DNA from: Dioscorea cayenensis subsp. rotundata
Taxonomy: Eukaryota; Streptophyta; Magnoliopsida; Dioscoreales; Dioscoreaceae
Direction: 5' to 3'
DNA length: 64,000 nucleotides
Assembly: GCF_009730915.1 (NCBI RefSeq)
Contig: NC_052475.1
Span: 1,612,001-1,676,000 of the forward strand
A model generated the notes under the pieces. It was not told the origin of the DNA. It searched no databases and worked only from the letters and a program-made list of their open reading frames with translations. The position numbers were made by a program, and so were the translations under genes. Position 1 is the first letter of the stretch. The number at the start of each line of letters is the position of its first letter. Below, piece by piece: positions 2,670 through 58,245 of this stretch.

Positions 2670-4644
2670 AATTCCTGATTATCTCAATTCTTAGCAGCTG
2701 ATGCTCTTAGCGCCATGTTCAACCATGCCATCTATTCCAAAGTCCTGATTGGAGTTCATCTTGACCAATCAAATAACATTAGTCATTTGCAATACGATGA
2801 TGATCTTATCATTTTCTCAGCTGGTGGACAGGAAGACCTTAAAATTATCAAATTAATTCTTTATTTATTTGAAGGCTACTCAGGTCTCTCAATCAACTAT
2901 TCCAAAAGTTGCTTATACTCCACCAATTTCGGTTACCAATAGACTTCCTCTTCGGCGAGAATACTTAATTGCAGTCGGGATTGTCTTCCCGTCACATACC
3001 TGGGAGTCCCCCTTTCTGGTAGACGACCCAGAAGGTCTGACCGGACTAAGTTAGTTGATTCTGTTCGCACAAGGCTCACACCCTGGAAAGCTATCTACCT
3101 TTCGTTGGGGAGTCGTTTAACCTTTATCAACTCCGTTTTATCTTCAATTCTAGTATACTGGATGTCAGTCTTCAAACTACCTGCCTGGGTCATTCATGAG
3201 ATTGACAAAATCAGAAGAGACTTCCTTTGGAAAGGTCCTGACCTAGGTACTAAAGGGATTAGGTTAATCGTTTGGAAGAGAATTTGTCGCCCACAAAGCA
3301 TGGGTGGCTGGGGAATCCTTGATTTGCAGGAGTTCAACAAAGCTTTACTAGGAAAATGGTGGTGGAAATTCATTACCACACCGGACTCCTGCTGGTTCAA
3401 GATCATCAAAGCCAACTATACCAATAGTGATTTCCCTAGTTTTCTATTCTTACAACCACCAAGAAATAAATCTATCTTTTGGGCGGGAATTAATACCATT
3501 CTACACTCATTCCGTTCCTGCTTAATCAAAGTTATTGGAAATGGAGAAAATACTTTATTCTGGCATGACAGATGACTGGAGGGCCAATCCCCCTTAAATC
3601 GTTGGCCTTATCTCTTTTTGGACTGCCCTCATCCCTGGATCACTCTAAAACAACTTATACTTACTCTTAACTCCCAAGGGTAACCCATTTAGTTCTGCTT
3701 CAATTAACGATTTTGGTACAATTCTCAATTCTTTACCTGCTTGTACCAATGATTTTGAAGACTTCTACTCTTGGCCTTTTGAAAAAAATGGAACCTTCTC
3801 TGTTAAATCTTTTTACAATTTTTTAATAGATGGAGGTCTTCGAAGCCAACTCTATTCCAAATTCTGGAAAACCAAATCCCCAAGCAAAATCACTCTTTTC
3901 TGTTGGCTTGCCTGGGATAACAAAATTCTTACCCTTGAAAATTTGTTCAAAAAAGGCTGTAATCCTAACGCCACTGACACATGTATTCTTTATCACAATA
4001 ACACAGAATCAGTAGATCACCTATTCTTACACTGCACCTTTCACTTCGCATTTGGTCTTATTATAAGTTTTATCTACATCTGACTCACTTCCGACCTCAG
4101 TTGCAAATATTTGGACCAAATGGATACCTTCTTTAATCCCTACTTCAAGAAACCTTTGGGATATCTGTTCTAGAGCCATCCTCTGGAATGTATGGTTGGA
4201 ACGCAACAACCGTATCTTTAACCAAACCTGCGCATCCCGATCTTCAATTATATTTAAGACTGTTAATATGACTCTTTCTTGGATTTCTGCAAACTTGGTT
4301 TACCATCAATAGGAAGCTGCAAAGGTTACTTAGAAGATCAAGCGCTCCTTAAACTTCCTGAGCTCCAGATCCATAGACTCCACAGGCGATTTGGCGTCAA
4401 ACTTGACTCAGGAGTAATTCGATTCTCCCCTGCCTGAGTAAGCCTGTGTCTCTAGATGGCTGACTTCGCTGGCTTCAGTTCCTCCCTATCTGCTTTCTTA
4501 GTTCTTTATGTTTACTGTTTTCCTCATCTATGGTGAGAACTTCAATATTTTCCTTCGTTCTTATGTTTACTGTTTCTGTTTTCCTTTTGTACTTTGCTTT
4601 CTTTTTCTCTAATAAATTCGTGGTTTATCCACTTTATTCAATAA
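2670..4644 (+). mobile_element. 5'-truncated LINE (L1-clade, RT C-terminus plus zf-RVT), degraded
   Basis: From about 2693 the plus strand encodes the end of a non-LTR reverse transcriptase (DALSAMFNHAI, then LQYDDDLIIFS in place of YADDL), a connection region (VTYLGVPLSGRR, 2990-3040), and 3105-3575 with RRDFLWKGPD and GGWGILDLQEFNKALLGKWW. A zf-RVT tail (FWKTKSPSKITLFCWLAWD, near 3860-3920) follows. Stops and frame changes interrupt it. The catalytic motif reads YDDD, so this copy is dead. It ends in a TTTATCCACTTTATTCAATAA tail shared with other LINE copies in the window. A 13-base direct repeat (aaaaacaaatatt) at 2657-2669 and 4645-4657 fits a target-site duplication, but A-richness weakens this. 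Confidence 0.85.
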
Positions 4645-5011
4645 AAAAACAAATATTGAAAAATCAACAACAAGAAATAAAAATGGGTCATGATGCAATG
4701 CACATAATTCTTTCTTCAATGAGTTAAATCAGTTGATGGGTGTTTTGAGGTTTAATATTGGGCTTTCCCATCTAACCTTCTGTCCTCCAAGATTAATTTT
4801 AGCTATATATAGCAAGGCACTATTTCTCAATCACTATAAGGAAAACTGTATTTTGACACTATAGCTTTGGCTTAGAATCAATTCCGTGCCAAATTTACAA
4901 TGGATTTTGATACAGAATTATTAACGGTGCTAAATTTGGCACAATATTTGGCACACAATTTAGCACAATTTTTATTCCAATAACAAACTATGCCTAAAAT
5001 ATTGACAAATA

Positions 5012-5299
5012 CTCCCTCTATTCCTAAATACATGTCGTTTAAGAATGATGTACAAGAATTAAGGATAGCATTAAATTATCTAAATTTTAACATAAGATAC
5101 AATCAAATTACTAAACTATCCCTCTCTTGAAACTATGTATTTTTCTAAGGACTATAAATATTACTCTTTTCATTTATATAACTTAGGAAATTGAATGGGT
5201 AAAATTGGAAAAAAAAAAATTGCCTTGATATTGTAAAGTGACAACTATTTTGTAATAAAATTTTTTCTTAAAACGACATGTATTTAGGAATGGAGGGAG
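5012..5299. mobile_element. Stowaway (Tc1/mariner) MITE 1
   Basis: A 288-bp inverted-repeat element bounded by TA dinucleotides at 5010-5011 and 5300-5301. The left end CTCCCTCTATTCCTAAATAC is matched in reverse complement by GTATTTAGGAATGGAGGGAG at the right end. Termini and TA target site are those of plant Stowaway MITEs. There is no coding capacity. Confidence 0.9.
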
Positions 5300-5315
5300 T
5301 ACAAACAACAATATA

Positions 5316-5631
5316 CTCCCTCCGTTCCTTTTTAGTTGTCACATTTTGGAGCTCTTCTCTGTTCCTTTTTACTTATCACATTAGAAACTTTGTGCAGCAT
5401 TAAATATTTTTTTCCAAATTTACCCTTTCATTTAATGTACTTGTACAATTTTCAATAAATTAAAATCAACTAAGCATTAAATTATATTTTCTGCTAGTGG
5501 GATTTTAAATAGGGGTAGTTTTGAAAAGTAATAGATTTTTTTATAAAATATAGGTAATCAACTAATTTTAACTAATTTTTCTTAATCGATGTGAATTAGT
5601 TAAATGTGACAACTAAAAGGAACGGAGGGGG
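5316..5631. mobile_element. Stowaway (Tc1/mariner) MITE 2
   Basis: A 316-bp inverted-repeat element with CTCCCTCCGTTCCTTTTTAG at the left and its near complement CTAAAAGGAACGGAGGGGG at the right, flanked by TA at 5314-5315 and 5632-5633. It starts only 16 bp after the previous MITE and differs from it internally, so it is a separate insertion of a different subfamily. Confidence 0.9.
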
Positions 5632-5757
5632 TATTAATTTTTAGTTGGCACAAAATTTAGCGTAATGAGCCCATAACTGTATTAAATATCGTGCCAAACA
5701 GTATTGTTTTTTGTTGGCATGCAATTTGGCACGGTATATCCAAAATTGTGCTAAATA

Positions 5758-6469: not shown

Positions 6470-6724
6470 ATTGAGTGCTTCATATCTATCTTTTTGTGAG
6501 AGAGATTGAGGATTTGGAGCCTCCCCATTTTTGTTGGCTTCCATCTTGTATTGCTTCATCTCAATAGTGGATTAATTGCCTCACCGCCACCCATGGTTTT
6601 TCCCGTAAGGGTTTTCCACGTAAATCTTAGTGTTCTTTAATACATTGGTTGCTTCCTGGGATATTGATTGTTTTGGTAAGCTATATCTAATAGGTATTTT
6701 GTAATTTTGAAGGTTATACACTTA
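6470..6724 (+). mobile_element. LTR-like fossil fragment (Copia-type U5 look), split by the CACTA insertion
   Basis: The stretch with 'ctcaatagtggattaattgc', 'cctcaccgcc' and 'ttttccacgtaaatctt' resembles the downstream part of a plant Copia LTR. The sequence resumes after the CACTA element at 13722, since the TTA target duplication joins the two sides. No internal retrotransposon genes are visible nearby. It is an old fragment with unclear ends, and identification rests on these short signatures only. Confidence 0.4.
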
Positions 6725-6744
6725 CACTACACTAAAAAAATAGT

Positions 6745-7185
6745 TGTAGAGGCGATTTTCAAGACCTATAGAGGCGGTTAAAACCGCCTCTATAGCTTTA
6801 GCGGTGAATTTTTCACCCGCCTCTAAACCGGCTCGTATTAAGCCGGCTCTAGAGTTTAGAACCGGTTTGATACAACCGTTGGGGGTAAATTAATAGGTAA
6901 ATAAGCAATTTTTAGAGGCAGTTATAACCGCCTCAAAAGATATTTTACCTAGACCTAATTTATATAGTTTTAGAAGCGGTTATAACCGCCTCTACAATTA
7001 AAATTTTAAAACTCTAGCTATAGTTTTAGAGGCAGTTATAACCGCCTCTACGATTAATAAAGTTTTACCAACATTCATACTTTTAGAGGCGGTTATAACC
7101 GCCTCTACAATTAAAATTTTAAATTTCTAATTAAAATTTCTAATTAGTGTTTTAGAGACGGTTATAACCCCCTCAAAAGCATACC
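6745..7185. repeat. CACTA subterminal palindromic repeats
   Basis: At least five copies of a palindrome of the form TAGAGGCGGTTATAACCGCC followed by TCTA, spaced about 60-110 bp, with variants such as 'gaggcagttataaccgcctc'. In CACTA elements such subterminal repeats bind the TNPA-type protein. Each copy can fold into a hairpin with a GC-rich stem inside AT-rich DNA. Confidence 0.85.
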
Positions 7186-7574
7186 TAATAATTAGTTTTT
7201 AATTGAATAAATATTATTTAATCAATTAAAAACATGCTTTTAACCAATTTAAAACTCACATTTTATTTTTATTTTACAAAATAAAATAGTAAAATACACA
7301 TAAATTCGGGTTTTTTTGATAAAATAAACTACTAATTCAACCCACATGCTTAAAAAGGAAAATAAAATACGAACTCTGAACTCTTTGATAAATAAGCTAT
7401 ATTAAGCCATAGCCCAAGGGTTTGGAATCTCTTGATTAGAAACCTAAAACATGTTATAGATTCTGGTTTACATAAAAAGAACTGCTTAGTTTGGCACAAT
7501 AACTAATCTTTAAGAGAGAATTGCTAAGAAGACAGCCAATTGATTCATCAGTTCTCAGGCTCCATTACTCCAGT

Positions 7575-9548
7575 CTATTTCTTCTCAAAGTTGCTATCAA
7601 GCTCATTCTTCAACCGCAATAAGAAGTCATCATTCACATCATCATCATCCCAATCATCCTACTCTGCAAAATTTATGCAAAATGATGCTTACTTATTCCA
7701 GGCAACAAATTCAGAATAGCTACTTGTTTCTGATCATTGCTTCATCATGAAAGCCAGTAACAAGAAGTTAAATGGTTGCCAATAAATAATGTTCAATTGA
7801 CAGGCTTTGGAAGCTAAGAACATTAGGGAATCAATAAGAACAACATACGACCACAAATCAATCAGTTCAAAGATTACATTCCGACTGCAATAACAATACC
7901 AAATCAAAAAACCAAGTTGACAAGATAAAGAAAAAGTAAAAAACAAGAACACATATCAACAAGTTCAAAGATAATATTTCCACTGGAATGGGAACTTGAC
8001 ACTGAAGAATTAACAATTTATCAAAGCACAAAAGATTACATTTTCACTACCATTAACAATACCAAATCAGAAAACCATGTTGGCAAACAAAAAGAGTTAA
8101 AATCAAGAACACATTTCAACAAGTTCAAAGATAATATTTTGGCTGCAATAGAAACTTGACAATGAAGACCAACAACAAATAAGAGCACAAAGATCACATT
8201 TTGGCCGTCATATGAATACCAAATACAATAATCAACCAACAAACAAGCAGAGAAACTTGAGAACAAAAAACAACTAGTAATCTATTTTGATAATCAAGCA
8301 TATCATAATTAGTTAAAAAAAAAATGAACATTATCATTCTCATTTTTTTTTTTTTTGGAACAATGTGGGGTATTGATAGCAGCAACAATGTGGGGTTTAT
8401 TTGTTTAGCAACAATATCATTCTCTAATTCATGTTTGTGGAGTACCTCTGGAGGAGGTTACTGCAGAAAAACAGGGGCTTTTGATCATGAGTGTGACTGC
8501 AACAGTGGATACGCAACTTGTTTAACATTTCTAGCTTTTCCTGCTTAAATATGCATGCCATTAAATAGAAGCTGATGAGTCAATCAATTACCCCTTGAAT
8601 CAAATAATGTGATGTGTTGGCTAATAAATGAAAACCTGAAAAAGCTTTGCCAACCTTTCTCAGATCACATGCCTGCCAATTTATGGAAGAAAATAACAGA
8701 AGAGACTTACCACGCTCACTTACTTGCAACAAATACTCAAACTTGTCCATCTGCGATAATGTACTCTACAATCATCTTAAGTTCCATGCTCTGCATAATG
8801 GGAAAGTTTATTGTAATCAAATTAATTAAAAGCAAGTTTCAAAGCACACGGTAGCATCTAGTCAACTCATCATAATTACTATTTCTGCTAGCATTTAGAA
8901 ACAAGAATACATTTCTATTTACCAGTTGTAGAGCAATAAAGAATAATAAGCACATTCATTTTCTATCTTTTAAAAGTGGCTTCAGTTTACCAAATCAGCA
9001 TCATCAATCAAGGATCTGCATCTTTGTACACTGAAGTCAGTTTAATGAAACGCCAATAATCAATGTATTCAGTTCAACTTACCCACACATAAATCATATT
9101 TGCTATGCTTATTAATGTAGTTTTGCAGTTCTAGTATCCTTTGTAGGTGCCCATGCACGACTCTTGACTCATCACCACCTGCAGAAGAAGCCAGACGTCT
9201 GCAGTTTCATTTCAAAGTAATTATTCTTATTCCATGACACACTGGTGGAAGAAGACAAGAAATGAAAGCATCATCATCTGTTGAAGCAGATCATATGAAC
9301 AAATTCATCTACATTACCAAAGGATCTACATTGAGAAAAACTGCAAGCAGAACTACAGCTGCCAGACAAAAGTACGTTTATAAATTCAGCTGTGGTTCAA
9401 TCCGATATCAATTTCTCAATGTTAGTTAGTTACCATTTCTTCCAGCAGCTCTGCCCTGGCTAATTTGTCCGGAAGGCAGGAGATTGAGCTGTTATTGAAC
9501 AAGGCTCATGACTTGAGCAAGGAGGTTGATTTCCATATCAGGTAATAA
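7575..9548 (-). pseudogene. captured multi-exon fragment of an unrecognised plant gene (inside CACTA)
   Basis: Several minus-strand blocks look like exons with good splice signals. One at 9548-9434 (acceptor TTTTTGCAG, donor GTAACT) reads LLPDMEINLLAQVMSLVQ, a stop, then QLNLLPSGQISQGRAAGRN. One at 9178-9083 (donor GTAAGT) reads GDESRVVHGHLQRILELQNY and onward in the matching phase. A short block near 8752-8709 reads MDKFEYLLQVSERG. A last block at about 7658-7575 encodes an acidic tail (DDWDDDDVNDDFLLRLKNEL) ending in a stop. The first block is also open on the plus strand, but the acceptor favours minus. I do not recognise the protein. The in-frame stop and uncertain middle exons point to a decayed copy carried by the transposon. 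Confidence 0.5.
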
Positions 9549-10117
9549 CTGCAAAAATACAAGAGAAGGAATTAGTGGAAGGTATCATTCAGATTATATA
9601 CAACAAGGCTCATTTGGTTCTTGGAATGTGGTGGCGTAACATGGATACACATTCTTGGGAATGTGAAATACAGGGATCACTATGATCGATGTGTTACAGT
9701 AACTTGTTTGAATTATCTAAATACCCTTGTATACAATTTTTCAATGATAATAAAACACATAAAATTGGTAACTTTCATGGGTAAAAGATAAATGCATTTG
9801 AGTTGTTTGGTCATTATAGGAAGGCAAGGGAATTTTGTCATTTTAGTGAAATATCTAAGGTTGGAATATAATGGTAAAGAATATTTGAACTAGTGGAATG
9901 AATTCTAAAATGATGAATTATAATGGTAACTTTATTTTCTGTTGCATTTGCCTGTAAGTGGACTCGGAAGGTTTCTCGTTCTCATGGTTCATGGGAATGT
10001 GAGCCATGTGGGAATCAAATTTGCATGGGAATTTGATAAAAAAAGAAGACAAATAGAAGACAAAGAATTTATTTGCTAAATTTTGAATAAAATGGGAATT
10101 GAATTTGTTTTTTGCAG

Positions 10118-11085
10118 ACATAGATGGACAGGTAGGTTTGAAACACACCTCTGGGACAAAGGTTCTTGGAATGCAACACAAAAGAAGGGAAAACAAGGTA
10201 CTAATTAATTACACTTTATTGTATATATATAATCAAATTCACTGTTTTTTTTATTTTTTATTTTTAAGTTTATCTTGGTGCTTATGATGAAGAAGAATCA
10301 GCAGCAAGAGCTTATGATCTTGCTGCACTAAAGTACTGGGCACCTACAACCTTCGCAAACTTCCCAGCAAGTTTCTATTTTTTTTTAAATCGGTTTTTAA
10401 TATCTTGAAAATGAAATATAAATATTCACAATATAATCTCAATTATCTAATTATGAGAAAGAGTTGGAAATAATGCAAAGTGTGACTAGAGAGGAGTACT
10501 TAGCCCCATTAAGAAGGTATTAGATTCTAGTCCCTAATGAACTCTATATACTTCCTTAAAATTTTTTCATTAAAAGAATGAAACCATTTTTATTGAAGAA
10601 ATTAATTGCTTTGTTAGCAGGAAGGGCAGTGGCTTCTCAAGAGGTGTCTCAAAATACAGGGGTGTTGCAAGGTATGCACATACATATCCACTAAATTTTA
10701 TTTAAGATCAATGATTTAGATGAATCACATTAGCACTAAACTTTTTCATAAAATATGAAATAATGCAGGCATCATCACAATGGAAGATGGGAAACAATGA
10801 TTGGTAGAGTGTTTGGCAACAAAAGTACCTCTATCTTGGCACTTACAGTAAGTTCAGCAACTAAACTGAATTCTCAATTTAAGAAGTCAAATTTCATAAT
10901 AAAATCAACTGAATTAATCACATGATATAGTGACATTAATTTCAACCAAATTAAACACACTTGACACATGTTTATCAAAATGATTAGTGACAAAATGAAT
11001 AAAAACAAGCACACAAGAAGAATCAGCGTATGCATATGATATAGCAACCATAGAATACAGAGGGATCACATACATAACCCTAAAG
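10118..11085 (+). pseudogene. captured AP2 (ANT/AIL/WRI1-type) double-AP2 transcription factor fragment (inside CACTA)
   Basis: Six exon pieces keep the order and introns of an AP2-family gene with two AP2 domains. 10118-10197 gives [18 protein letters not shown]. 10269-10372 gives [20 protein letters not shown] and [13 protein letters not shown], completing AP2 repeat 1. About 10456-10518 gives the linker KELEIMQSVTREEYLAPLRR. 10621-10671 gives KGSGFSRGVSKYRGVA. 10769-10847 gives HHHNGRWETMIGRVFGN then YLYLGTY. About 11018-11080 gives TQEESAYAYDIATIEYRG. Breaks include two extra A bases in the GNK-YLYL exon and no exon for the start of repeat 1 (SIYRGVTR) or for the activation region. Retained introns show capture of genomic DNA, not cDNA. 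The family binds DNA through its AP2 domains; this copy cannot make a full factor. Confidence 0.85.
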
Positions 11086-13029
11086 ACTACGGCATGCTTA
11101 TTCTAATCCTTGAACTGTGTGTTTTTAAGATACATCTACAACTTCAATTATATCCAACACAAACAAAATGAGAAATTGCAAACTAAAATATGATTCAGAG
11201 AACACACTAAAAGGGAAAACAAAACAAATAAATGCAAATAATATAGCAACAAACAGAAGTTTTCTTTCTGAATGAAGAATAGAATTTCACAGAGATATAG
11301 AATAATGTAGCCTAATTTTCAAATAAACATTTTCAATCATTTTGGGTTTATCCCCTTTCTAAATTTGTCATCAAGTTTTGGGATTATACCCTTTCTAAAT
11401 TTATCATCAAGTTTTCAATCATTTCACAGAGAAATAGAGATTTATAAACAAGAACAATATTGGCATTTAATCATACATCATATACCTTCTTATGAAGATA
11501 ATTTTTCATAACTTATAAGTTTTATGGCATCCAACTCTATTGATGAGATCTGACTTTAAAAAAAAAAAATGGCAAGAGCATTGATAAATTTTATACCGAC
11601 CGAGCTTTTTACAAAGCAGTTTTTAAATCCTCAAAAACAAGTTGTACTAACAGAACTCAGGTAGAATCTTTTTGGATAATAAGATATACCAACAACGAGT
11701 ATTTATGCTTTAGGTGCTTAAACTACATATTGCAACAGTACTTACCATTGACAACAACTTATTGAACCATCCTTTAACAGTTTTTCTTATTTGGTCATAA
11801 CATTCCGTGGCCTTTTGACTTCTCTGGAGTCACATTCCGTGGGGAGGCTACTACACCTGTAGCTTTTCTGCTTTATAAGAGGATACATTCAGCCAAATGT
11901 AATGTAAGAAATAGTAGTTGGAATGGAGAAGCCAGACTAGGAAAACCAGATAAAGATATCAAGAAGTATAACTGATGGAGGAGAAAGATGTTATTAGCTT
12001 AGCTACTATTCAATGATCAATATTCCCAATTGCATCCAGAAGTAGCCATGCACTTTATAGAAGTTAAAAAGAATAATGTAATCAGTAACTTGCTGGTATT
12101 TTACAACTTCAGTGTTAGGTCAAACTCGAACTTTGTACCAAAGCAAACTTTTATTTTATTTCAACATCATCAAGTAAATAAAATACACTTGTGCTATCCT
12201 TTAGAGTAGAGAAATATAAAATCAAAGAGTTACCTTATCATAGAACAGAACTCATATATATATGTCATTGTTTAGTCTTATATTAATACTACTCGAGTCT
12301 CAACCAAAGCCTATCCACATTAAATCATCAGCCAGAAGTTGTACCTCTTTATTCTCCTCATCAAACTAAAAATAAATCATACAATTACAAAATGATAATT
12401 CATGAAATAAAGATTAATATATCAGCCATGGAAAAAGAAAAGAAGGCTTAGAAACTATTCTGTACAAACTACCCAATAGAAAATTCAGAAGATAGAGATG
12501 GTCAGGCGCTGTCAACGAGAGTACCACAAAAAGTTATAAAGTTTAGCACATGGAAAGTGAGAATCAGGCATACCAATCATCATGATACTTCACAAAAAAG
12601 CAAGAGGCTTGAGTTCAATAATCATTGGAACAATAACAGTTTCAATGCGGTATACTGTGTGTGTGTGTGTGAAGGTTAAATATAAGCTTAATATTGACAC
12701 CCCCAAAAGAAACCTATTATATTTAACTCAGAACTATAATTTCTGCAAAAGAGAGAATTTCATGATTCAATAGAAAATAGAGCACAAATGACAATAATGT
12801 GGATAGATTATGGACTCAGAAAACATTTCCTCACAAATCAATTGTAACTGATGTATGCATCAAAGAGAACATTGCCCACAAACTCCATTGTTAATAATTT
12901 GTTAATGTAGTTCAACAGATTATGCATTGTTCCAGGAGTGTTCACTTCAAGAGCATTGATATCTCGATAGAAAAAAGTGCATATCAGAGAGTGATTTGTA
13001 GTAGACTACCAATGAACAGGGATCTAAAC

Positions 13030-13486
13030 ATCTATGGAAGAGTAAGAAGAAGGGGGAGGAAAAGAGAGAAGAGACTGATGAGGGGGAGGTCCTTGTCGTC
13101 AGGTTCCAGAGCAATGAGGCAGTCGATGATGGCGATAGCGCGGGGAGTAGATTGGTCTTCACTTTGAGCTCAAGTAGCGATCAGAGCACCTTGATGTCGT
13201 CTGGATCAGAGGTGAGGTCGTCTTTGAGTGCGCAGACTTTCTCATCATCGGTGAGGGATTCCGGGAGGGCCTCGGACTAAGAGATGGGGGTGGCGGCGAG
13301 GGCTAGCTTGAGAGGGCTGCGGAGAAGGGCAACGAGGGCGAGAGCAGCTGCAGCGGCCGCCGAGGGGATGAGGGTTCTGAGAGGGTTATCGTGGGGCCGT
13401 GGTTTGAGGGTGGCACGAAGAAGAGGAGAGGGTTTGGGGAGGCGGGATCGAAGAGGAGAAGGCGGAGGAATTAGAGAGGGTGGCAC
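13030..13486 (-). pseudogene. captured 5' part of a plastid-targeted TPR-type protein gene (inside CACTA)
   Basis: On the minus strand a GC-rich reading region starts with a Met at 13486 and runs through a basic, Ser/Pro/Arg-rich leader with a hydrophobic alanine-rich segment (AAAAAALALVALL), like a chloroplast transit peptide plus membrane or lumen-type segment. Further on, EALPESLTDDEKVCALKDDL and TSDPDDIKVL, then LLELKVKTN and (another frame) PRAIAIIDCLIALEPDDKDL, match the start of a TPR array as in plastid proteins of the SLOW GREEN 1 type. The frame changes and an in-frame stop after DDIKVL show it is broken. GC content is far above the rest of the element, as expected of captured coding DNA. 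The exact parent is uncertain. Confidence 0.55.
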
Positions 13487-13545
13487 GAAGAGGGGGAGAG
13501 GGTTTGGGGAGGCGGGCTCGAAGAGGAGAGGGCGGAGGAATTAGA
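13411..13545. repeat. 70-bp tandem duplication
   Basis: Two copies (13411-13475 and 13481-13545) of a G-rich unit beginning 'tggcacgaagaa' and ending 'ggcggaggaattag', offset by exactly 70 bp with a few differences. It covers the presumed 5' end of the captured TPR-type gene and abuts an (AG)n tract at 13545-13566. Confidence 0.9.
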
Positions 13546-14139
13546 AAGAGAGAGAGAGAGAGAGAGGTTTTTTAATTATTTTTTAAAACAAAATTAATGT
13601 AGAGGGGTTGACCTCTAAACCGGCTCTAAAAATATAAAAAAAAATATTATATTTTATTATAGAGGTGGTTTTATAAAACCCCTATATTTAACTGCCTCTA
13701 AAGCCCAAATATAGTGTAGTGTTAAGTGCATGACAAGGTGTTGTTACAAGGCATGCAAGCAAGGTGTTCAATTAAATACCTATGAGGACTTAGCTTGTAT
13801 TTGATTGTTTCCGCTATCTCATTACACTCACAATTTGTGATTTGTTGTATGCATACACAAATATAAAAATTCATAAATTATATTTATTTGTATATTTATA
13901 ACAATTATACTCCTAAAAAAATCTAGAATTTTTTTTTTTTGTAAATTAATATATACACATGATAATATGTTTATAACTATACATCCATGACAATTATGCG
14001 TGGACGGAAAAAAAACCTTAATTTTTACATTAAATATAGTAACTTGTGATAACTACATGTTTATAAATGTGCATATCTAATAATATCTTGTTACCCTGCA
14101 TAAATACTCCATATGAAGTTTACGATAGCGTACATGTAT

Positions 14140-14450
14140 TATATATATAGAGAGAGAGGATGTATCGCCTGCCCACGTTCACAGATTCGTAATCTGTGAA
14201 CGTTGATATGGGCCGTTGGATTTCAATCCAATGGTTGCACACCGTTCTATGAACAGTAACACTGCGCACTATTTATAAGCACAGTAAAAAGTGGGATGCA
14301 CAGTATTCTAATCTGAACCATCCAATCAATCTCAGTACAGTAACTAAATCAATCGCAGTCGTCCAACCCTATTAAAATTACTGTACATCATCTGCGGACA
14401 TTCTACGAACATCCGCAGATGATGTTTGGCCATATATATATATATATATG
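14140..14450. mobile_element. Micron-like MITE in a (TA)n site, with perfect terminal hairpins
   Basis: A unit of about 280 bp lies between TA/GA microsatellite sequence at the left and (TA)n at 14434-14450. Near the left end a perfect 13-bp stem (14175-14187 with 14191-14203, loop CGT) is built on ACGTTCACAGATT. Near the right end a second perfect 13-bp stem (14386-14398 with 14412-14424) is built on CATCATCTGCGGA. A near-palindrome CCGTTGGATTTCAATCCAATGG lies between. Insertion inside TA microsatellites is the habit of rice Micron elements; assignment to that group is inference. Confidence 0.5.
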
Positions 14451-17040
14451 TTACGAATATGAATGCCTTAATTACGAGAATATATATAAATGTGATGTGC
14501 TTTTTTCATCCATTTAATATTCATTTATGTTTTATACCAAAGATCGTGACAAATGTAATGACGATTTAGTGAAAATCATAACAAATGTAGGCACAATTTT
14601 ACTATTCTGTACCAAATTCTATTTATCACGCAAGTTGTAGGCACCGTTACATTTTCATACTAAAAACCGTGACAAAATCAATTTATTACTTAAATTTGTC
14701 ACGATTTTTTGGTTTATTTCCGTGCTAAATTTATCATGTTAAGATGCATATTTATCCACAATATTATGCTTTGCTTTAGTTTCCAACAGCCCCATGAATC
14801 TTAAAAGGACATGCAGATCAGGCAATTTCAAGCAGCACTGATGGATACAGTGTATAAGTAGATTCTCAGAATAGCTTTTATTCTGTTCTTGTGCCAAATT
14901 GAGGAAGAAGCTCTAATTCACCAAGCTAATAGTAGCCAATATCAGTTGCTTAGAATATTGGATTGTATGATCCCTGTCAGATAAGCTAATCCGGCTGGTA
15001 AATTAATTAATAAGCTTGCTCTTTGCTTTTGCTATTAATTATCTATTCTCAAGGATGGTAACCCCATTCTGTGAGAACTAATGATTTTTGAGGTGGCCCA
15101 GGTGACCACCATTCACAGGCTTGTGGAGCTCAAGATGAAGGTTATATATGTGTGTGTGTGTATCCAATTCATCTAATTTTAGTGACATTTTTTGTTGTAT
15201 TTAAGCAGATCAAGACTTGTACGACGTGTATTCGTGCATGCATGCATGCATTGTAACACTTAAAGCAAAGTGTAAATAAAAATAAATGAGAATGGTGCAG
15301 AGGTCTTCTTCCAACGGAGCTAGCGGTGGTAGGTTAGCTTGAGGGGGCAGTTAGCGTCGATCCATGCATGATGTGTGGTCACACACTTTGGTGGAATCAC
15401 GGTCGCCAGTGGGGCTGTGTGATATTATTCCTATAACTGATGATTTTCTATATTCTCAAAGGAGATTGGGTATAAATTATTCATAAGGTATAAAAATAAA
15501 CTTATATGAATAAAAGGATAAAAAACATTTTAAATTTTTATTCTGTCTCACATCCCCTTTGATTCTAGGACATTATATGTTAGATAATTAATTAAACAGA
15601 TTTGATGATGGAAAAAGAAAAACATGATTTCCTATTGGAGCTAAAGTAAGAGACTTAATTGATTAATTGAGTTGAGAGCCATATTAGAGTAGAATCTATT
15701 TATATATGGAGATTGCATAACAAGTTGCATGATTGGAGTCTATCATTGATTCGGAGCTAAATTGGGTGAATGCCAAGATTATTTGATTGATTTAATATAA
15801 CAATACATTTGGTTGCTTGAAGACTATATTCTTAATTGATTAGAAGCTATTTTGGGCCAATCGAAAGAACACCAAAGTTGGGCTATTGATTGAAAACCAT
15901 GTGTGTTTCTGGCTTATTTGTCTGGTTAGTTGTAACTATTTCCATGGTTGGTCAGATTCTTGATAAATTTAGCTATTTGACTCAGGTTTAACCAAGAGGA
16001 TTAATGGTGCTATGAAGTTATGCTGCAACTGAATTGTGACTCAGCCATACTCGGTAAGCATGTTTAGGTCAAATCAATTCATATTATAATAATTCATAAT
16101 ACCACATTCAGAGCTAGGAGAGCATCAAAATAGAGGGAGGTGTGTGATCTTCCTAAATTTATAAGATTTTTATAACCTTGTTTCGTCTCTTTTATTAGTG
16201 GATTGATTCTTCGAATTTAGCCTATCAGATGCAGGTTGTGATACTAAATTGTGTTATTAAATTTTATGTTATTTTTTATGTTTGTAAATGATGATCTTAA
16301 AAATTAATATTCCACACTGACCAACGGAACTAACAGTAAAATCCAAATGCCTTTAATAAAATAAAGAGAAGTGAAATATAACTAGTTCTAAATTTAGAAA
16401 TCCAAATATAAAAAATGAGAGCAATATTAGATGATTTAACTGTACATCCAGGCTCCAATACAGTTCAGTATTGTTTATATTCATAAAAAAAGACGTTTGT
16501 CGTCTATTATTCAAAAAATATATATTAGATGATTCAAAAATTAAATTTTTTTTTTAGGTGTCCGTAGTATTTCTAAACACTTTTTTTTTAAAAAAATGGA
16601 TTAAAATTTTGAAAAGGTAGTTTTATAAATTAATGATTTCTGATAACGCAAAAGATTGTTCTACTTGAACCAAATAATAATAATAATAATAAAATAAATA
16701 GCATTTTTTTTATTTTTTGAGATTTTATTAGTAAAAAAATTCTAATACTCAAACCAATAGAAGTTGTTTGTGCTTGAAACTTGAAAGGTGATGTTGGCTC
16801 TTGACATGCTAGCATGCCTTTTTAAATGCCCATCCACTCTAAGTTTTGTAAGAAAAAAAAAATATTTTTTTTTAACTTTCTATAAATAGCACATACTCTT
16901 TCATTATTATTATTTTTTATTAACATACGCCTTTATTTTCAATTTTAACAATATCATAAAATTACTAAATCCTCCAAATTTATTTTCCTGAGTTTTGATT
17001 TAGCCATGTTAATACTAGATGACCATAATTAAGGGAATCA
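14451..17040. other. AT-rich intergenic DNA with decayed repeats
   Basis: No gene seen. About 14520-14760 holds 'ccgtgacaaa'/'gccaaatt'-type repeats like those at 4.8-6.3 kb. A short exon-like phrase EVAQVTTIHRLVELKMK lies on the plus strand near 15091-15141 without support around it. 16180-16250 has an LTR-like phrase ('tagtggattgattcttcg') that may be an old retroelement scrap. The remainder is simple AT-rich sequence. Confidence 0.5.
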
Positions 17041-27191: not shown

Positions 27192-27201
27192 TCATATAGC
27201 A

Positions 27202-27705
27202 GAGTAAATTTTTCCAGTGAGTACCTAAGTTTGGCCATATATCAGTTTGAGCACTAACTTTCAATTTGTATCAAAATGAGCACCAAATTTTAATTTCATT
27301 TCTCTGGCATGGTAATTGGGAGTTTTAGGTGGATTTTTTGGTGATGTGGACGCCGGAAAGCTTCGTGGATGCCTTGGGTCCATGTCACCGACTCACCAAT
27401 TCAGCCAGTTAACCAATGTGGCTTTTTTTGGTCCACTTAGGACGTACAATAGCTAACGTGTACCTCCTACGTGGACAAAAAAACACCACATTGGTTAAGT
27501 AGCTGAGCTGACGAGTCGGTGACATGGACCTAGGGTATCCACGCAAGCTTTTCGGCGTCCACATCACCAAAAATCCACTGAAAATCCCCAATTACCCCGC
27601 CTGAGAAATGAAATTAAAACTTGGTGCTCATTTTGATACAAATTGAAAATTAGTGCTCAAACTGATATAAGACCAAACTTAGGTACTCACTAGAAAAATT
27701 TACCC
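27202..27705. mobile_element. foldback MULE-type MITE with 10-bp target duplication
   Basis: A 504-bp element made almost entirely of two inverted arms of about 220 bp. The left end GAGTAAATTTTTCCAGTGAG is matched by GGGTAAATTTTTCTAGTGAG read from the right. It is flanked on both sides by the exact 10-mer TCATATAGCA (27192-27201, 27706-27715). Long inverted arms and a 9-11 bp duplication fit a Mutator-like (foldback) element. No coding capacity; the transcript would form a long hairpin. It sits between the GrpE gene and the LACS pseudogene. Confidence 0.85.
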
Positions 27706-27726
27706 TCATATAGCATCTAGTAAGTT

Positions 27727-42639: not shown

Positions 42640-45335
42640 AAATGTTAATGAAAATATTTAAAAATATAATAATAAAGTTATCTTTGGCACTCCTTTGCCA
42701 AATAGATTTCTCCTGGATTGGCACTTTCTTTTCGATTACAAGGTTAGAATTGATCTCTCCCAGCTTGAACTACCTTTCACCACTGAAGAAATCAAACAAG
42801 CTGTTTTTGGCCTTAACCCTGACAAAGCCCCTGGTCCTGATGGATTCCCTATTTTCTTCTTCCAAAAACATTGGACCATCCTCCAAGACACACTTGTTAA
42901 ACTTTGCGAGGACTTCTTCGAAGGCACAATCAACCTTGAGCGCATTAACTGGATACATATTGCTCTTATTGCAAAAAATAATTCGCCTGGCGAAGTAAAG
43001 GACTTCCGACCCATCAGTCTTATCAATTCCACTTGTAAAATTATCTCCAAAATACTTGCTAATCGTCTCAATACTGTTATCGGTTTGCTTGTCAATGAAT
43101 CTCAATCCGGATTTATTAAAGGCAGATGTACTGCGGACAACATTGTTGGTGCACAAGAAATTATTTTCAACTTACAAAAACACAAACGTCTTGGACATAT
43201 CTTTAAAGTGGACTTCGCTAAAGCCTTCGATTCTCTTGATTGGAATTTCCTTCTCGAAATTCTTGCTGCTAGAGGCTTTGAACCTAAATGGATCTCCTGG
43301 GTTCATTCCATATTTAGCACTGCCAAGGCCCAATTCCTTATCAACGGATCTACTCAGGGCTACATTCGTTGCAAAAGAGGTTTGAGGCAAGGTGATCCCC
43401 TCTCTCCTCTGCTCTTTGCCCTTGTCACTGATGTTCTGAGCGCTATGTTCTCCCATGCTCTCAAATCCAAAGTTCTGGTAGGGATCCCCTTGAACCATTC
43501 TGATAACATCTGCCACCTCCAATATGCTGATGATCTTCTTATCTTCACTCATCGGAGGACGGGAAGATCTTCATATCATTAAACTTATACTCGTATCTTT
43601 ATGAAGGCTCCTCCGGCTTATCCATCAATTTTTTTCAAAAAAAGTCGCCTCTACTCCTCTAACTATGGCTATCAACCCCATCACTCCTCGCCTAGAATCC
43701 TAAACGCATACACGTAGGGCCTCCCAATCACCTACTTACACAGTGGGTACCTTTCCTGGCTCTAGGACCCAAATCGGGATTTATCATGCGAATCAATAGT
43801 GGCCCGCCTCCTGTGTTCACCCTTGAAACGAATTACCTCACTTGGTGGACGCTTAACGCCTCCTTAATCCTATTCTCTCTCAACCGCCCCACATCGATGT
43901 CACTAAGCCCCGGCCAGGACTATTGATAAATCCGAGAGAGATTTCTTTGGAAAGGCCCTAACTGGGACCCAAAGGAGCCGATTGATCGCCTCGAGTAGGA
44001 TCACTAGACTCGGATACGGGAAGTTTGGGGGAATCCTTAACCTTCGACCTTCAATAAACGCTACCTGGAAAGTGGTAGGAAACTTGTAATCCCATTGGCA
44101 TTGGGCCAAAATCATCCACGCCTGTTCCATAAGTGACACCGTTGGAGTCCTATCTCATAAATTTCACCCGTAAACAAACTTTTTGGGCAAAGATCATTGT
44201 TACCTTCCGCTCTTGCGTATAACGAATCCATCGTAAACGGCTCTTAACACTTCACTTTTGTATGATCGTTGGTATGCCGGACTTCGCCTTTAAAGATTGT
44301 CAGTCTGATCTTATTCATTGATTGCAATCGGCCCATGGATAACCATCAAACAATTCACGAGATTATCTAACAACACCGAACTCTTATTTCCCACTTCCAC
44401 CCCCACATGTGTTATCTCCTTCTTGATATTATCCCCGATTGCTCCCTGACTCAAGACGACATGTTCACACTGACTCTTGATGTATGGCACATTCAATCAG
44501 AAATCCTTTTATAAATTTCCTCATCGACCATGAATACATGCACTCGCTTTTATCCCCTTTTCGGAAAAAAATCACTGCCCAAGCAAAATTACTCTCTTCT
44601 GTTGGCTTGCTGGGGAGGACAAAATCCTCACTCTCTCAAATCTCTTCAAAAAAGGTTACAATTTCCAAAATTCCACCGACACCTGTGTCCTTTGCCACAA
44701 TGCATCTGAAAATCTTCAACACCTCTTCATCGATTGTGAATTTTCTAAACGCATCTGGGCACTCTTTTCACAAATTTTAGAAGCAAACTCTCTTCCACAG
44801 ACAATCCCCTCACTGTGGACCATTTGGATACCATCCTTAGCCCCTCAGCACCGAATCCTCTGGGACCTCACGTCCCGTGCAATCCTGTGGAATATCTGGC
44901 TTGAAAGAAATATTCGCATCTTTCAATTGACTGCATCTTCGCATCTCAATATTATTTATAAAACTGCTAACATGCTTCTTTCCTGGTTCTCAACAGCAGC
45001 CGACAGACATCAACAAAGCCTCAATGATGCTTCACAATCAATCAAGCGCTCGCTCAACTTTTTTAGCGCTAGAGCCTCAAATCCTACTGGCGATCTCGAC
45101 CACGACACTGCTCCGGCATAGTTACTTCTACTACTTCTCTAATAAGGCCTGAGATGCCAGACGGTGTCTTCCGCCTGATTAGACTTCCCTCTACTTTTTG
45201 CCTCTTTGCTTTCTCCTCTGTACTTTTTTCCCCTCACTTCTGGTGAGAGGATTTAGCACTTTGTACTTTTGTTCTCCTTTTAATAAATCAGTGGTTTATC
45301 CACTTTTATTCAAAAATAAAAATAAAATAAAATAA
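42640..45335 (+). mobile_element. 5'-truncated LINE (L1-clade) with reverse transcriptase domain
   Basis: A 295-codon frame (42695-43582) encodes most of a non-LTR reverse transcriptase: DKAPGPDGFPIFFFQKHW, KDFRPISLINSTCKIISKIL, ESQSGFIKGR, KVDFAKAFDSLDWNFL, RGLRQGDPLSPLLFALVTDV and the catalytic LQYADDLLIF. Downstream, 43600-44480 is strongly scrambled, while 44540-45120 is again open in one main frame (KITLFCWLAGEDKILTLSNL, CVLCHNASENLQHLFIDCEF, SRAILWNIWLERNIRIF, ending LDHDTAPA). It ends with 'aataaatcagtggtttatcc' and 'acttttattcaaaaataaaa'. ORF1 and the endonuclease are missing (5' truncation). It is the best preserved LINE here but not active as it stands. Confidence 0.92.
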
Positions 45336-50959: not shown

Positions 50960-53279
50960 CTAGATTGTGTAGTCCTTATGTGAAGCTGCAAAGGTGGAAA
51001 CTATGGGACTAGTGACCACATGTTTGCCTCCAATCTCGTACCAACTAAGATAGCCATAGTTTCCCAAGTATTCACTCTGTTTTCTAGCAGATTTGCTCAG
51101 GTCTATGTCCACCCTTACCGAAAACTCTTGTTTGCTGTTCAAACCATTGAAATTGAGCGTTTGTTGCTTCACAAGCACCTTCATCCCCTTTGATGCCCTC
51201 ACTGCAGCCTGATATCTTGTTGTTGTGCTCTCAACATTCGTCAGGACTCTTTTAAATCTAAAAGTTGTCATGTTTGCATTGTTGAGGATCACTGTGAAGG
51301 AAGGGTAGTTTAGATCAAGGTTGGCTTTGGTGCAGCTGCAGTTGGACCGCCTGGTGATCGTGCTAATCTGTGAATTTGTGTAGTTTAGCCCACACAAGAA
51401 ATCGATGTAGTCTTGCACAGTGATATCATACACAAGGCCTGGATCCATGGCCTTGTTAGGGTTTATGTGCCCTGCTCCATATGCCAGAGGTGATCCTGCT
51501 GTGTCACTGCTCATGTCAATAATCCAGTTCCCAGTGTTATCAGTTGTATCGGCAGTGGTCATCATGGCGGAGCGAATGGCAGCTGAACTCCAGTCCCTGT
51601 GCACTGATTTGATCATAGCTGCAATGCCGATTACATGCGGTGAAGCCATGGACGTTCCCGAGACCAATGCATAGTTTGTGAAAAGGCTATCATTGCCAAC
51701 CTGAGCAAAAACTCTGTTCGGCACCCAGGCAGCTAAGACGTTAACCCCTGGAGCCAATATGTCTGGCTTCAGGATGGTAGGGCTTATTTGGCTTGGACCC
51801 CGGGAGGAGAAGAATGCTACCTGGGGAGCAGGCTTCGTGCCAAGCTTTGTCTCTCCAAATGAGATGCTCACTGCTGCCATTTTAGTTGCTTCCGCCATGT
51901 AGCTCTTGATCACCTTCCTCTTGGACAAGCTAACGGCAACAAACGGTATGTAGTAACTTGTGGGAAGAAGGAACTCTCGAAGATCTGTAGCGAAGATCGC
52001 TCCCTTGACTGCTAGTTGAGATAATTTATTTATCTGATCATACATGTCAAATTCAGAGACCACTGTGCAGAACACTATCTTTCCCGCTACCTTCTTTGGA
52101 TTAGGATGGAGGCTGTCACAGGACTCCTTGCTAGTAGTGTTCCCCAGACCATAGTAGAGTGGTATATTGGATAGAAACAACCTCTTTGGATAGGTCGATA
52201 GCCCTCTGATGGTCTCAGTGCCATTGCCAAGGGACACAGTAGCAACAAATTTTCTGTCAATCGTCCCTGCTCCAACTGATGTCAACCATGGAGCTCCGTT
52301 GATGACAGAGGACATGTTAGGGCCACTGTTGCCAGCCGCACATGCTACAAAAATTCCTTTCTCCATGGCTGCAAATGCTCCCATTTGCAATAATGTCACG
52401 ATAGTAGGGTGCTACCCCCAAGCCGAGGGATAAAGACATCAGGTCGACTCCATCTTCTATGGCTTGATTCATGCCGGCGAGGATGTCTGCGCCTGCAGTG
52501 TGGACGGTGTCTTCAGCAAAGACGACCTTGTACATGGCAATGTGGGCCTTGGGTGCCATTCCAGTAGCAACGCCTTTGGCATAGCCAAAGTAGCTCACAT
52601 CGGCAACTGGTCTCCCAGCTGCTGTGGATGAGGTGTGGGTGCCATGGCCAAAGTAGTCCCTGGGGGAGTCATAGTCAATGGATTTTCGTACCTTAAGGCC
52701 ATGGTGCTTATGCCCTTTGCTGAAGGATCTTGCTCCAATCAGCTTCCGATTGCAAAGTGAAGAATTGAATGCAGTGCCCGTCTCACATCTCCCTTTCCAT
52801 CTCTTCGGCACTGGAGGCATTTCATCATCTTTGAAGCTCTGACTCTCCGGCCAAATCCCGGTGTCTAAAATACCAATGATCATGCTGCTGCCATAGTTAG
52901 ATGTTGACCAGAGACCAGATTCTGTTGTCAGGCCGAGGAACTTTGGCGTGTGTGTGGTCAGGAGCTGACCATATGAGTCAGGATAGCTTGCGATGTGCCC
53001 AGGAACTTGCTTGATCTGCTCAAGCTGTGTCGATGTGAGTACAGCACTGAAGCCCTTCATGACATGCTTGTATGAGTATAAGTGGGTTGCTGGTTCTGAA
53101 AGTGATGAGAGTATTGCCACATGCCAGCTTTCAGACTTCAAGAAAGGAGCAGGCATTGCTGAGGCATCCATGTGGATAATGTATGATCTCTGATCATTGT
53201 TCGCCTTTGATGATAATAAAACAGTACATGATATAAGTATGAAAAACAGGAAACTGAGCGCCATGCTTGATGTATGCAT
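50960..53279 (-). pseudogene. SBT1-type subtilisin-like protease with a single frameshift
   Basis: One intronless gene is split into two frames, 53279 to about 52385 and about 52388 to 50960, together about 770 residues, normal for plant subtilases. N-terminal part: signal peptide (MALSFLFFILISCTVLLSSK), I9 prodomain (RSYIIHMDASAMPAPF), catalytic Asp139 (ILDTGIWPES) and His212 (GHGTHTSS). C-terminal part: oxyanion-hole Asn (ACAAGNSGP), PA-type insert, catalytic Ser (VSGTSMASPHVIGIAAMIKS), and a fibronectin-like end (LDLNYPSFTVILNN). The break is one extra A in 'attgcaaatggg' (between DIIA and MGAFAAMEKG). No other damage was noticed, so this is a very young pseudogene or a base-call error. 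The TATA box is so close that MALSF (53264) may be the true start. Confidence 0.88.
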
Positions 53280-53284
53280 AGCTT

Positions 53285-54330
53285 AGTGTAGAGCTAAGAG
53301 GCATGAAGAACTGTATTTATAAAAATAGGGCTTTGAATTTTCTCCTATAGCTTTCTTGTGATCAATCAAATGCAGTATCATTGAATCTTCTTAGTAGAAT
53401 TGTGTAGAAAACTAAATTGTGACACGCTTTACTTGAGAATGAAATTTAAACAAATGTTGAACTTTTAGTTTTTGCTTTTGTTGAAAATCTTATCTCCATG
53501 ATTGATGCCTATATAGCTCAGTGTAGAGTTCAAAGAATAGTATTTATAAAACTTGGGTATAAATTTTCTCCTATAGCTTTCTAGTAGTCAATCGATGCGA
53601 AATTATTGAAACTTTGTAGTTAAGTAGTGTTGATAATTAAATTGTGACATGATTTACATGAAGATGAAATAAAACAAAAAAATTGTCAACTTCAAGTTTA
53701 TTGTTTTTGATAGGAATTGTTATCTACATGATTGATGTCTGTATAGCTAAGTGTAGAATGAAGAAGTATGAAGAATAATAGGCTTTATAAAACATGGCTA
53801 TAAATTTTCTCTAATAACTTTCTGGTAGTCAATGGGATGCAGTATCATTGAAGCTTCTTATCGAAGTTGTGTTGAGGACTAAATTGTGGTGCACTTTACT
53901 TGGAAAATTATATTAACAAAAATTGTGAACTTTCGGTTTTTGTTTTCAATAGCAATCTTATCTCCATGATTAATGTCTGTACAGCTCAGTGTAGAGTTAA
54001 GAAATACAAAAAATAGTATCTATAGAAACATGGCTATAAATTTTCTCCTATAGCTTTTTGGTAGTCAATGGGATGCGGTATCTTTGAAGCTTAGTGGAAT
54101 TTGTGTTGATGACTTAATTGTGGCTCGCTTTCCTTGTAAATGAGATTAACGAAAACTGAATATTTACCATTTTTGTTGTCGATAGGAATCTTAGCTGTAT
54201 GATTGATGTCTGTATAGCTCAGTGTAGGGTAAAGAAATACAAATGACATTTTCTATAGAAACAATACTACGAATTTTCTCCTATAGCTGTCTGGTCATTG
54301 ACTGAATGCAGAATTATCCAATAGTGCAAG
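53285..54330 (-). repeat. five tandem copies of a promoter/5'UTR unit (about 235 bp)
   Basis: The whole space between the two subtilases is one head-to-tail array. The landmark 'ttttctcctatagcttt' recurs at 53337, 53564, 53805, 54041 and 54274 (steps of 227-241 bp). Each unit carries, in the minus direction, 'ctataggagaaaatttatag', a TATAAATA-like box (clear in units 1 and 2, decayed further out), 'ctctacactgagctata' leader sequence and 'catcaatcATG' matching the gene's own 'catcaagcATG'. Unit 1 is the real promoter of the gene at 50960-53279; the others are extra copies stacked upstream. Identity looks like 75-85% by eye, so the copies are not recent. Confidence 0.85.
53314..53321 (-). promoter_or_regulatory. 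TATA box of the frameshifted subtilase
   Basis: TATAAATA on the minus strand, 35-42 bp before the first ATG (53279). It is part of the first unit of the tandem array upstream of this gene. Confidence 0.65.
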
Positions 54331-54446
54331 ATTTTAACATTCTTCCTAGTTTTTATGAACTTAGTGGAGCTAAATTCCTTTATTTACTATTCAAGAAGAC
54401 TAGAACAAATATACTAGTAGAATTAAACAAGAATATTATCTTTCCT

Positions 54447-56750: not shown

Positions 56751-56806
56751 GATTGAATGATGTATGTGTATAGATAATTGAACACAATAGGAGGAATGCG
56801 TTAGTG

Positions 56807-56814
56807 TATTTATA
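56807..56814 (-). promoter_or_regulatory. TATA box of the intact subtilase
   Basis: TATAAATA on the minus strand, 57-64 bp before the ATG at 56750. It predicts a short leader of about 30 bp and rules out the upstream Met at 56834 as the start. Confidence 0.7.
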
Positions 56815-56829
56815 ATGGTTTGCATGGTA

Positions 56830-58245
56830 GGCAACCTTGATTTTGTTTAATCTGTTTAATTGCATTGTGTGACTTTAATCTTAACGAAAACAAAAAACAA
56901 GAGAAAACAGTTTTAAGGATGAAGGAGTTTGTGCTTGGTTGCAAGTGTTTGGCATTTGATACTGATTTGAGAAGGTAATTAGGAGGTGCAGGTAACTCGA
57001 TGCAATCGATGAGAATGTATGAGAATATTCTAAACACATGGGGACATATAAAGAACCATAAAAAAAAACCACTTCCCATATTTGGTTCACGTTTCTAGTT
57101 GGGTATTTTATTTGGTTCAAAGGTGATATTTTATTTTATTTTATTTTATTAAAAAAAAATTTGACCATTGCCGCCATAGCCTTAGACCAAAAGGATACAA
57201 CTCTTTTTATTTTTATTTTTATTTTGTGTTTTTAACAAATCAAAACATGCTCTTTTATCTTCTTTTAATTTTGTATTAGAAATAGTTTCAACAGTGCAAG
57301 AATTTCTTTTTTATAAATTCATTTTTTACATTACAATTTCACGGATAAAAAAATAATTTTGCACCATTGGTTTTTTATATTTACAAAAACACCTCTAAAA
57401 AAAATTATAACACCCTCTAAATTTTTTAAAAACCAATAAATATTTACTCAATTATTATGCACCGTGAATATGCAATAAATATTTTTAAATATAAAATATA
57501 CTAAAAGCAATATAAAGGTGACAAAACCACTTCTTGTTGATACTTTTTCTCTGCTCCTTCCATAACCCTGGGGATTAGAGACAATCTAGTTAAAAATCAA
57601 CAGCGATGAGTTTATCATCTTTATGCAAAATAAAATAAAAAATATAATAATAATAGATTACTGGTTGAAAACTTTTACCAAAAACTCAATTAATGAGCCA
57701 TAATAATTTAGTTTTTCATTCTAAATTATTTTTTTTGAAGTCTACAAAAATTTTCCTTAAAGCAGAAAGCACAACCAACAAGCCAAACCTGTCTGCATTG
57801 TTAGCATATTATCTAGCTGTTTATTCATCTTTCCATCACTTGAGCATCTGAATCTAGATATCACTAGTTCTCAAATTTGATGCATATATGAAATAAGTTC
57901 ACTAAAATCCTTCACACTATAACTGATCCTTCAAATTTGATCATGGACGAAATCTGGTCATGCGAGTGAACTTATACAAATCCAGATAGAGAGTTCAAAG
58001 AAGAACAAAGTCTGTGATTGTACTTAAGGCACTCGTTGCAGGTGACAAGTTTAATAAATATAACTGTATAAGGTAATTATCGATCAATAGAAGGGAATTC
58101 CAAAGTTAAACAATGCTTCAACAAAATATCAATAAAGCAAACTAGTTTTCTCAGCATTCATGATCCAAAACAAGAGACATTTCGAAATGCAAAATTTAGA
58201 TAGGCCTAACGACACAAAGAAATGCCACTCAAACCATGAATGACA
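56830..58245. other. intergenic DNA between the subtilase and RPS10 genes
   Basis: Promoter region of the subtilase, then A/T-rich sequence. The last part before 58250 should be the 3'UTR of the ribosomal protein gene. No further gene recognised. Confidence 0.4.

Follow-up and report, generated by a model that had tools for sequence, protein, structure and literature searches.

The window that we analyzed is a 64-kb stretch of yam DNA, in which an insert of 6,997 bp occupies positions 6725-13721. The plant nuclear genes of the window include an auxin response factor gene, a RALF peptide gene, and, on the minus strand at 50960-56846, two subtilase genes that are 74% alike over 2.2 kb. The latter are tandem duplicates, and diverged repeats of some 235 bp lie in between (53245-54317). 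A match to the C/D-box snoRNA snoZ122 (60362-60455, minus strand) and a reading frame for S10_plectin, similar to ribosomal protein S10, lie around 600 bp apart. At 27195-27712, a stretch of 518 bp forms an imperfect long palindrome, with a match of 87% to its own reverse complement. To the left of the insert, two regions (785-1774 and 3649-4083) encode the C-terminal part of a hAT transposase (Dimer_Tnp_hAT, hAT-like_RNase-H) and a zf-RVT domain, which we take to belong to a LINE-type element. RVT_1 and zf-RVT domains are found again at 42662-43582 and 44534-45121. Short inverted repeats at 5010-5634 form two pairs that are 94-95% alike (5010-5045 with 5265-5301, and 5313-5346 with 5602-5634), presumably small Stowaway-type elements.

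The insert is delimited by perfect terminal inverted repeats of 10 bp, CACTACACTA, which begin with CACTA. This sequence occurs exactly twice in the window, at 6725-6734 on the plus strand and at 13712-13721 on the minus strand, and TTA stands on either side of the insert as a 3-bp target site duplication (6722-6724 and 13722-13724). An earlier note on this DNA had claimed exactly these ends and this duplication, and both are indeed there. The sequence CACTACAA is absent from the window. Literature searches for CACTACACTA, or for AGAGGCGGTT together with CACTA, returned no transposon paper among the titles of the matches listed. We then considered all 816 pairs of CACTA and TAGTG lying 200-20,000 bp apart in the window, 9 of which have a 3-bp duplication. 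A 10-bp terminal repeat combined with such a duplication is found in a single pair, the one at 6725-13721. The sole other pair with a repeat of at least 8 bp and a duplication (ACA) is at 11205-15184 and has one end within the element. Since a pair of equal quality was obtained by chance in 11 of 300 dinucleotide shuffles, the ends are not conclusive by themselves: taken alone, the terminal repeats and the target site duplication are only suggestive. As a separate candidate, we looked at whether the element is inside a solo Copia LTR; eight weak pairs of ends with a 5-bp duplication were found, none of them convincing.

The subterminal regions of the insert carry arrays of palindromes of the GAGGC(G/A)GTT type. 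On the left side, at 6741-7178, six copies of a palindrome like TAGAGGCGGTTATAACCGCCTCTA, 72-100% alike, are found together with half-sites within around 440 bp. On the right side, at 13597-13711, there are related half-sites, with CTCTAAACCGGCTC at 13613, GAGGTGGTT at 13662, and TAGAGGCAGTT at 13700 on the minus strand. Within the window, CTCTAAACCGGCTC has just two occurrences, at 6821 and 13613, which share a strand and are close to the left and the right end of the element, respectively. We counted the half-site motif GAGG(C/T)(A/G)GTT, which was picked after the sequence had been inspected, and found 11 of its 12 occurrences in the window within the first 460 and the last 130 bp of the element; these end regions contained none in each of the 300 shuffles. 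This clustering is stronger evidence than the ends that the insert is a CACTA element. Structured subterminal repeats are typical of CACTA elements, and the passages of PMC8978399 and PMC2613891 that describe these elements combine terminal inverted repeats, a target site duplication, and structured subterminal repeats, all present in 6725-13721. The exact 24-bp palindrome did not occur in the prokaryote genome contigs scanned, as one would expect of a motif from plants.

Between its ends, the insert carries a fragment of a WRI1-like AP2 gene on the plus strand, at 10118-11079. It consists of six exon blocks with introns (10118-10197, 10269-10366, 10452-10516, 10621-10671, 10769-10847, and 11008-11079). 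Once joined, blocks 1-5 match Arabidopsis WRI1 (7wq5_A) with a phmmer E-value of 2.9e-66 and 97 of 119 residues identical, and the ERF-type chains in the same search are found at 1.8e-5 at best. Even when the blocks are not joined, a fragment from one exon, as read, matches Pfam AP2 at 0.00031. In block 6, which was positioned by eye, 15 of 24 residues agree with WRI1 (7wq5). The joined blocks follow WRI1 in the pattern of a first AP2 repeat, a linker, and a second AP2 repeat, the fragment being partial. GT and AG are kept in the introns that follow blocks 1, 3, and 4; block 2 is followed by GC, not GT, and no AG is found at the limits of blocks 3 and 6 as placed. There is a frame change inside block 5, where HHHNGRWE...GNK is read in a different frame from KYLYLGTY, leaving the YLYLGTY codons of the piece out of frame. 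In block 2, the VYL codons (10269-10277) are contiguous with the GAYD codons and thus fused to the next exon. Since VYL generally makes up a distinct exon of 9 nt in genes of the WRI1 type, an intron may be missing from the captured piece. Partial and out of frame, the AP2 piece no longer codes for a working protein.

A second piece, on the minus strand at 7575-7658, has 27 codons and a stop and is a candidate last exon of a gene encoding DSS1/SEM1, a 26S proteasome subunit. It matches Pfam PF05160 with an E-value of 3.6e-5 over positions 39-59 of the 60 of the profile, scoring 24.2 bits, which is below the curated cut-off of 32.2. This corresponds to the acidic C-terminal part of the family profile alone, the rest of which is not in the piece. 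Among the SEM1 chains of the PDB, the best match has an E-value of 0.0019. On these matches, the capture of DSS1/SEM1 appears moderately supported.

The other blocks are less readily assigned. A first-exon-like fragment at 13077-13410 on the minus strand, which presumably resembles a plastid TPR protein, is broken by two in-frame stops and one frame change. Its best E-value to Pfam TPR_9 is 0.067 on typed joined peptides and 0.14 as read. The typed peptide also matches 4u08 (LIC11098) at 0.00038 with no stretch passing alone; we discounted this match as support for a TPR, one chain there named TPR protein having an E-value of 2.3. The fragment adjoins a 73-bp tandem duplication (13406-13548) whose copies are 93% identical. 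A weak EGF-like fragment, with a frame change, is found on the plus strand at 8443-8565. Its E-values are 0.51 to Pfam EGF_2 as read (one member), 0.034 to EGF_3 for a typed joined peptide that spans the frame change, and 0.22 to a Notch EGF. In the Pfam scans, DUF7626 (0.0089), DUF389 (0.012), and WIV_dom_3 (0.036) gave matches that we took as chance, and the TPR and EGF matches are no better than these.

Four coding-like blocks are left without a family match, three of them on the minus strand, where no family was found. The one at 8724-8790 is bounded by AG and GT but has no frame open over its whole length, and the typed peptide joining two frames gave no Pfam match. The block at 9083-9178 is exon-like, open in one frame, with an AG acceptor and a GT donor, and its best match in the PDB is at chance level (E-value of 0.2). 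The third, at 12847-12963, has 39 open codons, no GT or AG at these limits, and no Pfam match; searched in the PDB with another piece, it gave E-values of 0.052 and 0.45, the better of which spans the join, and both were taken as chance. On the plus strand, an exon-like block with an AG acceptor and a GT donor lies at 9449-9541, and its best PDB match is also at chance level (E-value of 1.4). The open stretch 12303-12365, included in the PDB search, gave only matches that were taken as chance.

The earlier note had proposed three unrelated captures: pieces of an AP2 gene on the plus strand, and a plastid TPR-type gene and an unrecognised gene on the minus strand. The AP2 pieces are clearly those of a WRI1-like gene, and part of the unrecognised gene can now be named as the last exon of DSS1/SEM1. 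Hence, two of the proposed captures stand, one strongly and one moderately, and the third is left with the TPR_9 matches given above. In total, the element holds pieces of at least two captured host genes, probably more.

Pfam scans of stop-free fragments, read at E-values up to 1, showed no transposase or CACTA-associated family, in line with the earlier remark that no transposase is visible. Among the fragments of at least 30 residues, the scans covered 60 of 67 on the plus strand and 59 of 62 on the minus strand, and among those of 20-29 residues they covered 76 of 83; 20 hand-picked fragments were also scanned and fragments below 20 residues were left out. The unscanned fragments of at least 20 residues sit at the two ends of the element. 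A search of the 20 hand-picked fragments against NCBIfam gave nothing at E-values up to 0.1. Interior stretches such as 7700-8400 and 11110-12840 gave no accepted family in the Pfam scans.

Taken together, the insert at 6725-13721 is very probably a Pack-CACTA, a non-autonomous DNA transposon of the CACTA (En/Spm) type that holds pieces of host genes unrelated to one another. One might also regard it as an old cluster of resident pseudogenes that CACTA-like ends bracket by chance, or whose two ends represent two separate small CACTA derivatives. The shuffles that reproduced a terminal repeat and duplication of the same quality would fit this reading, as would the single copy visible within the 64-kb window, where a self-comparison at an E-value of 1e-4 revealed no second copy of the element and no match of its interior elsewhere. 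However, a chance bracket should not have half-sites clustering at both ends, as they did in none of the shuffles, nor should it have one CTCTAAACCGGCTC close to each end with no further copy in the window, and the sole alternative pair of ends cuts into the element. Moreover, the two named genes, AP2 on the plus strand and DSS1/SEM1 on the minus strand, are unrelated and oppositely oriented, so that, as far as the window shows, the blocks are not those of one contiguous resident gene, a point on which the earlier view holds. We therefore consider a pseudogene cluster unlikely. It is hardly credible that the insert is instead a formerly autonomous CACTA element with nested insertions and no gene capture, in which the transposase decayed past recognition: the long interior stretches without an accepted family could be its remains, but a DSS1 exon of 27 codons and six exon blocks of an AP2 gene can still be read in a sequence where no transposase or CACTA-associated Pfam family appeared among the fragments scanned.

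In a Pack-CACTA element, the ends and the subterminal palindromes would serve as cis-signals for the transposase and the subterminal-binding protein of an autonomous relative located elsewhere. As the AP2 piece keeps its introns, the host gene pieces were copied at the DNA level. The likeliest route of capture, as proposed for Pack-CACTA, would be neighbouring insertions followed by an aberrant excision in which the outer ends are fused; a 2026 review describes capture through the fusion of adjacent Pack-CACTA copies (PMC13317346).

The cargo is depleted in CpG. Over 7180-13000, the observed/expected ratio is 0.233, which is below all 227 windows of the same length outside the element, windows that overlap one another (minimum of 0.29), and TG+CA is 1.32 against an outside maximum of 1.31. 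Because of this overlap, and because 16 of the 111 outside 1-kb windows also have a CpG ratio of 0.3 or less, the low CpG is supporting evidence only. The ratio is 1.27 in the subterminal region and 0.9 in the TPR-like end; neither is CpG-poor, and either late capture or base composition could explain these higher values. The depletion of the cargo suggests a long residence in methylated, silenced chromatin, with which it is consistent without being proof.

We ranked 60 gapless inverted pairs by length. In the 25 longest, the pairs whose two arms both lie in the cargo proper have 25-35 nt and 70-76% identity, and a near-palindrome of 39 bp is found at 7195-7233. The inverted pairs of the cargo being short and imperfect, there is no sign of a long hairpin from which siRNA could arise. 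Production of siRNA from captured genes is reported for other types of elements in part of the same review (PMC13317346). It is very doubtful that transcription across the cargo generates chimeric or antisense RNAs regulating the intact WRI1-like and DSS1 genes. If this were true, the RNAs of the cargo would tie oil biosynthesis and proteasome regulation to a transposon.

For comparison, the relevant passages of PMC1947982 describe Tgm-Express1, a CACTA element found in the wp allele of F3H in soybean. It is 5.7 kb long and has exon and intron regions from five unrelated genes that are spliced into chimeric transcripts. The yam element resembles it in carrying exon and intron pieces of unrelated host genes, but differs in the captured genes and in the subterminal motif, as far as the latter is given in PMC2613891. 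Tgm-Express1 is transcribed inside its host gene as chimeric mRNAs. According to the sections of PMC8903248 on maize Pack-TYPE elements, one such element often contains more than one locus, and Pack-CACTAs contain the most. The same sections describe the Pack-CACTAs of Arabidopsis and maize as having terminal inverted repeats, target site duplications, captured coding DNA, and no transposase, like the element analyzed here. The search that gave the Arabidopsis set used CACTACAA ends, whereas this element ends in CACTACACTA. An AP2 fragment has also been captured by CACTA-like elements of three Chenopodium species, others of which carry further gene fragments, as described in portions of PMC8978399. 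In Chenopodium, the AP2 fragment has 80 bp, whereas the yam piece has around 960 bp with introns, and the fragments there lie upstream of retained transposon coding sequence, whereas the scanned fragments of the yam element contained no transposase. A literature search for WRINKLED1 together with CACTA gave one match, on acetyl-CoA carboxylase genes.

Hence, several intron-bearing gene captures in one CACTA element are already known, since Tgm-Express1 and the maize Pack-CACTAs hold several genes, and the element at 6725-13721 adds a good example of this kind. The earlier note had called three such captures in one copy rich; the multiplicity is there, but with five genes in Tgm-Express1 it is not new. 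Well delimited and with a subterminal palindrome of its own, the element enlarges the known set of CACTA elements that have captured genes. Its captured WRI1-like and DSS1 exons provide tags for tracing the origin and order of each piece, and its importance would be greater if the cargo proved to be expressed or to yield small RNAs against the parent genes.
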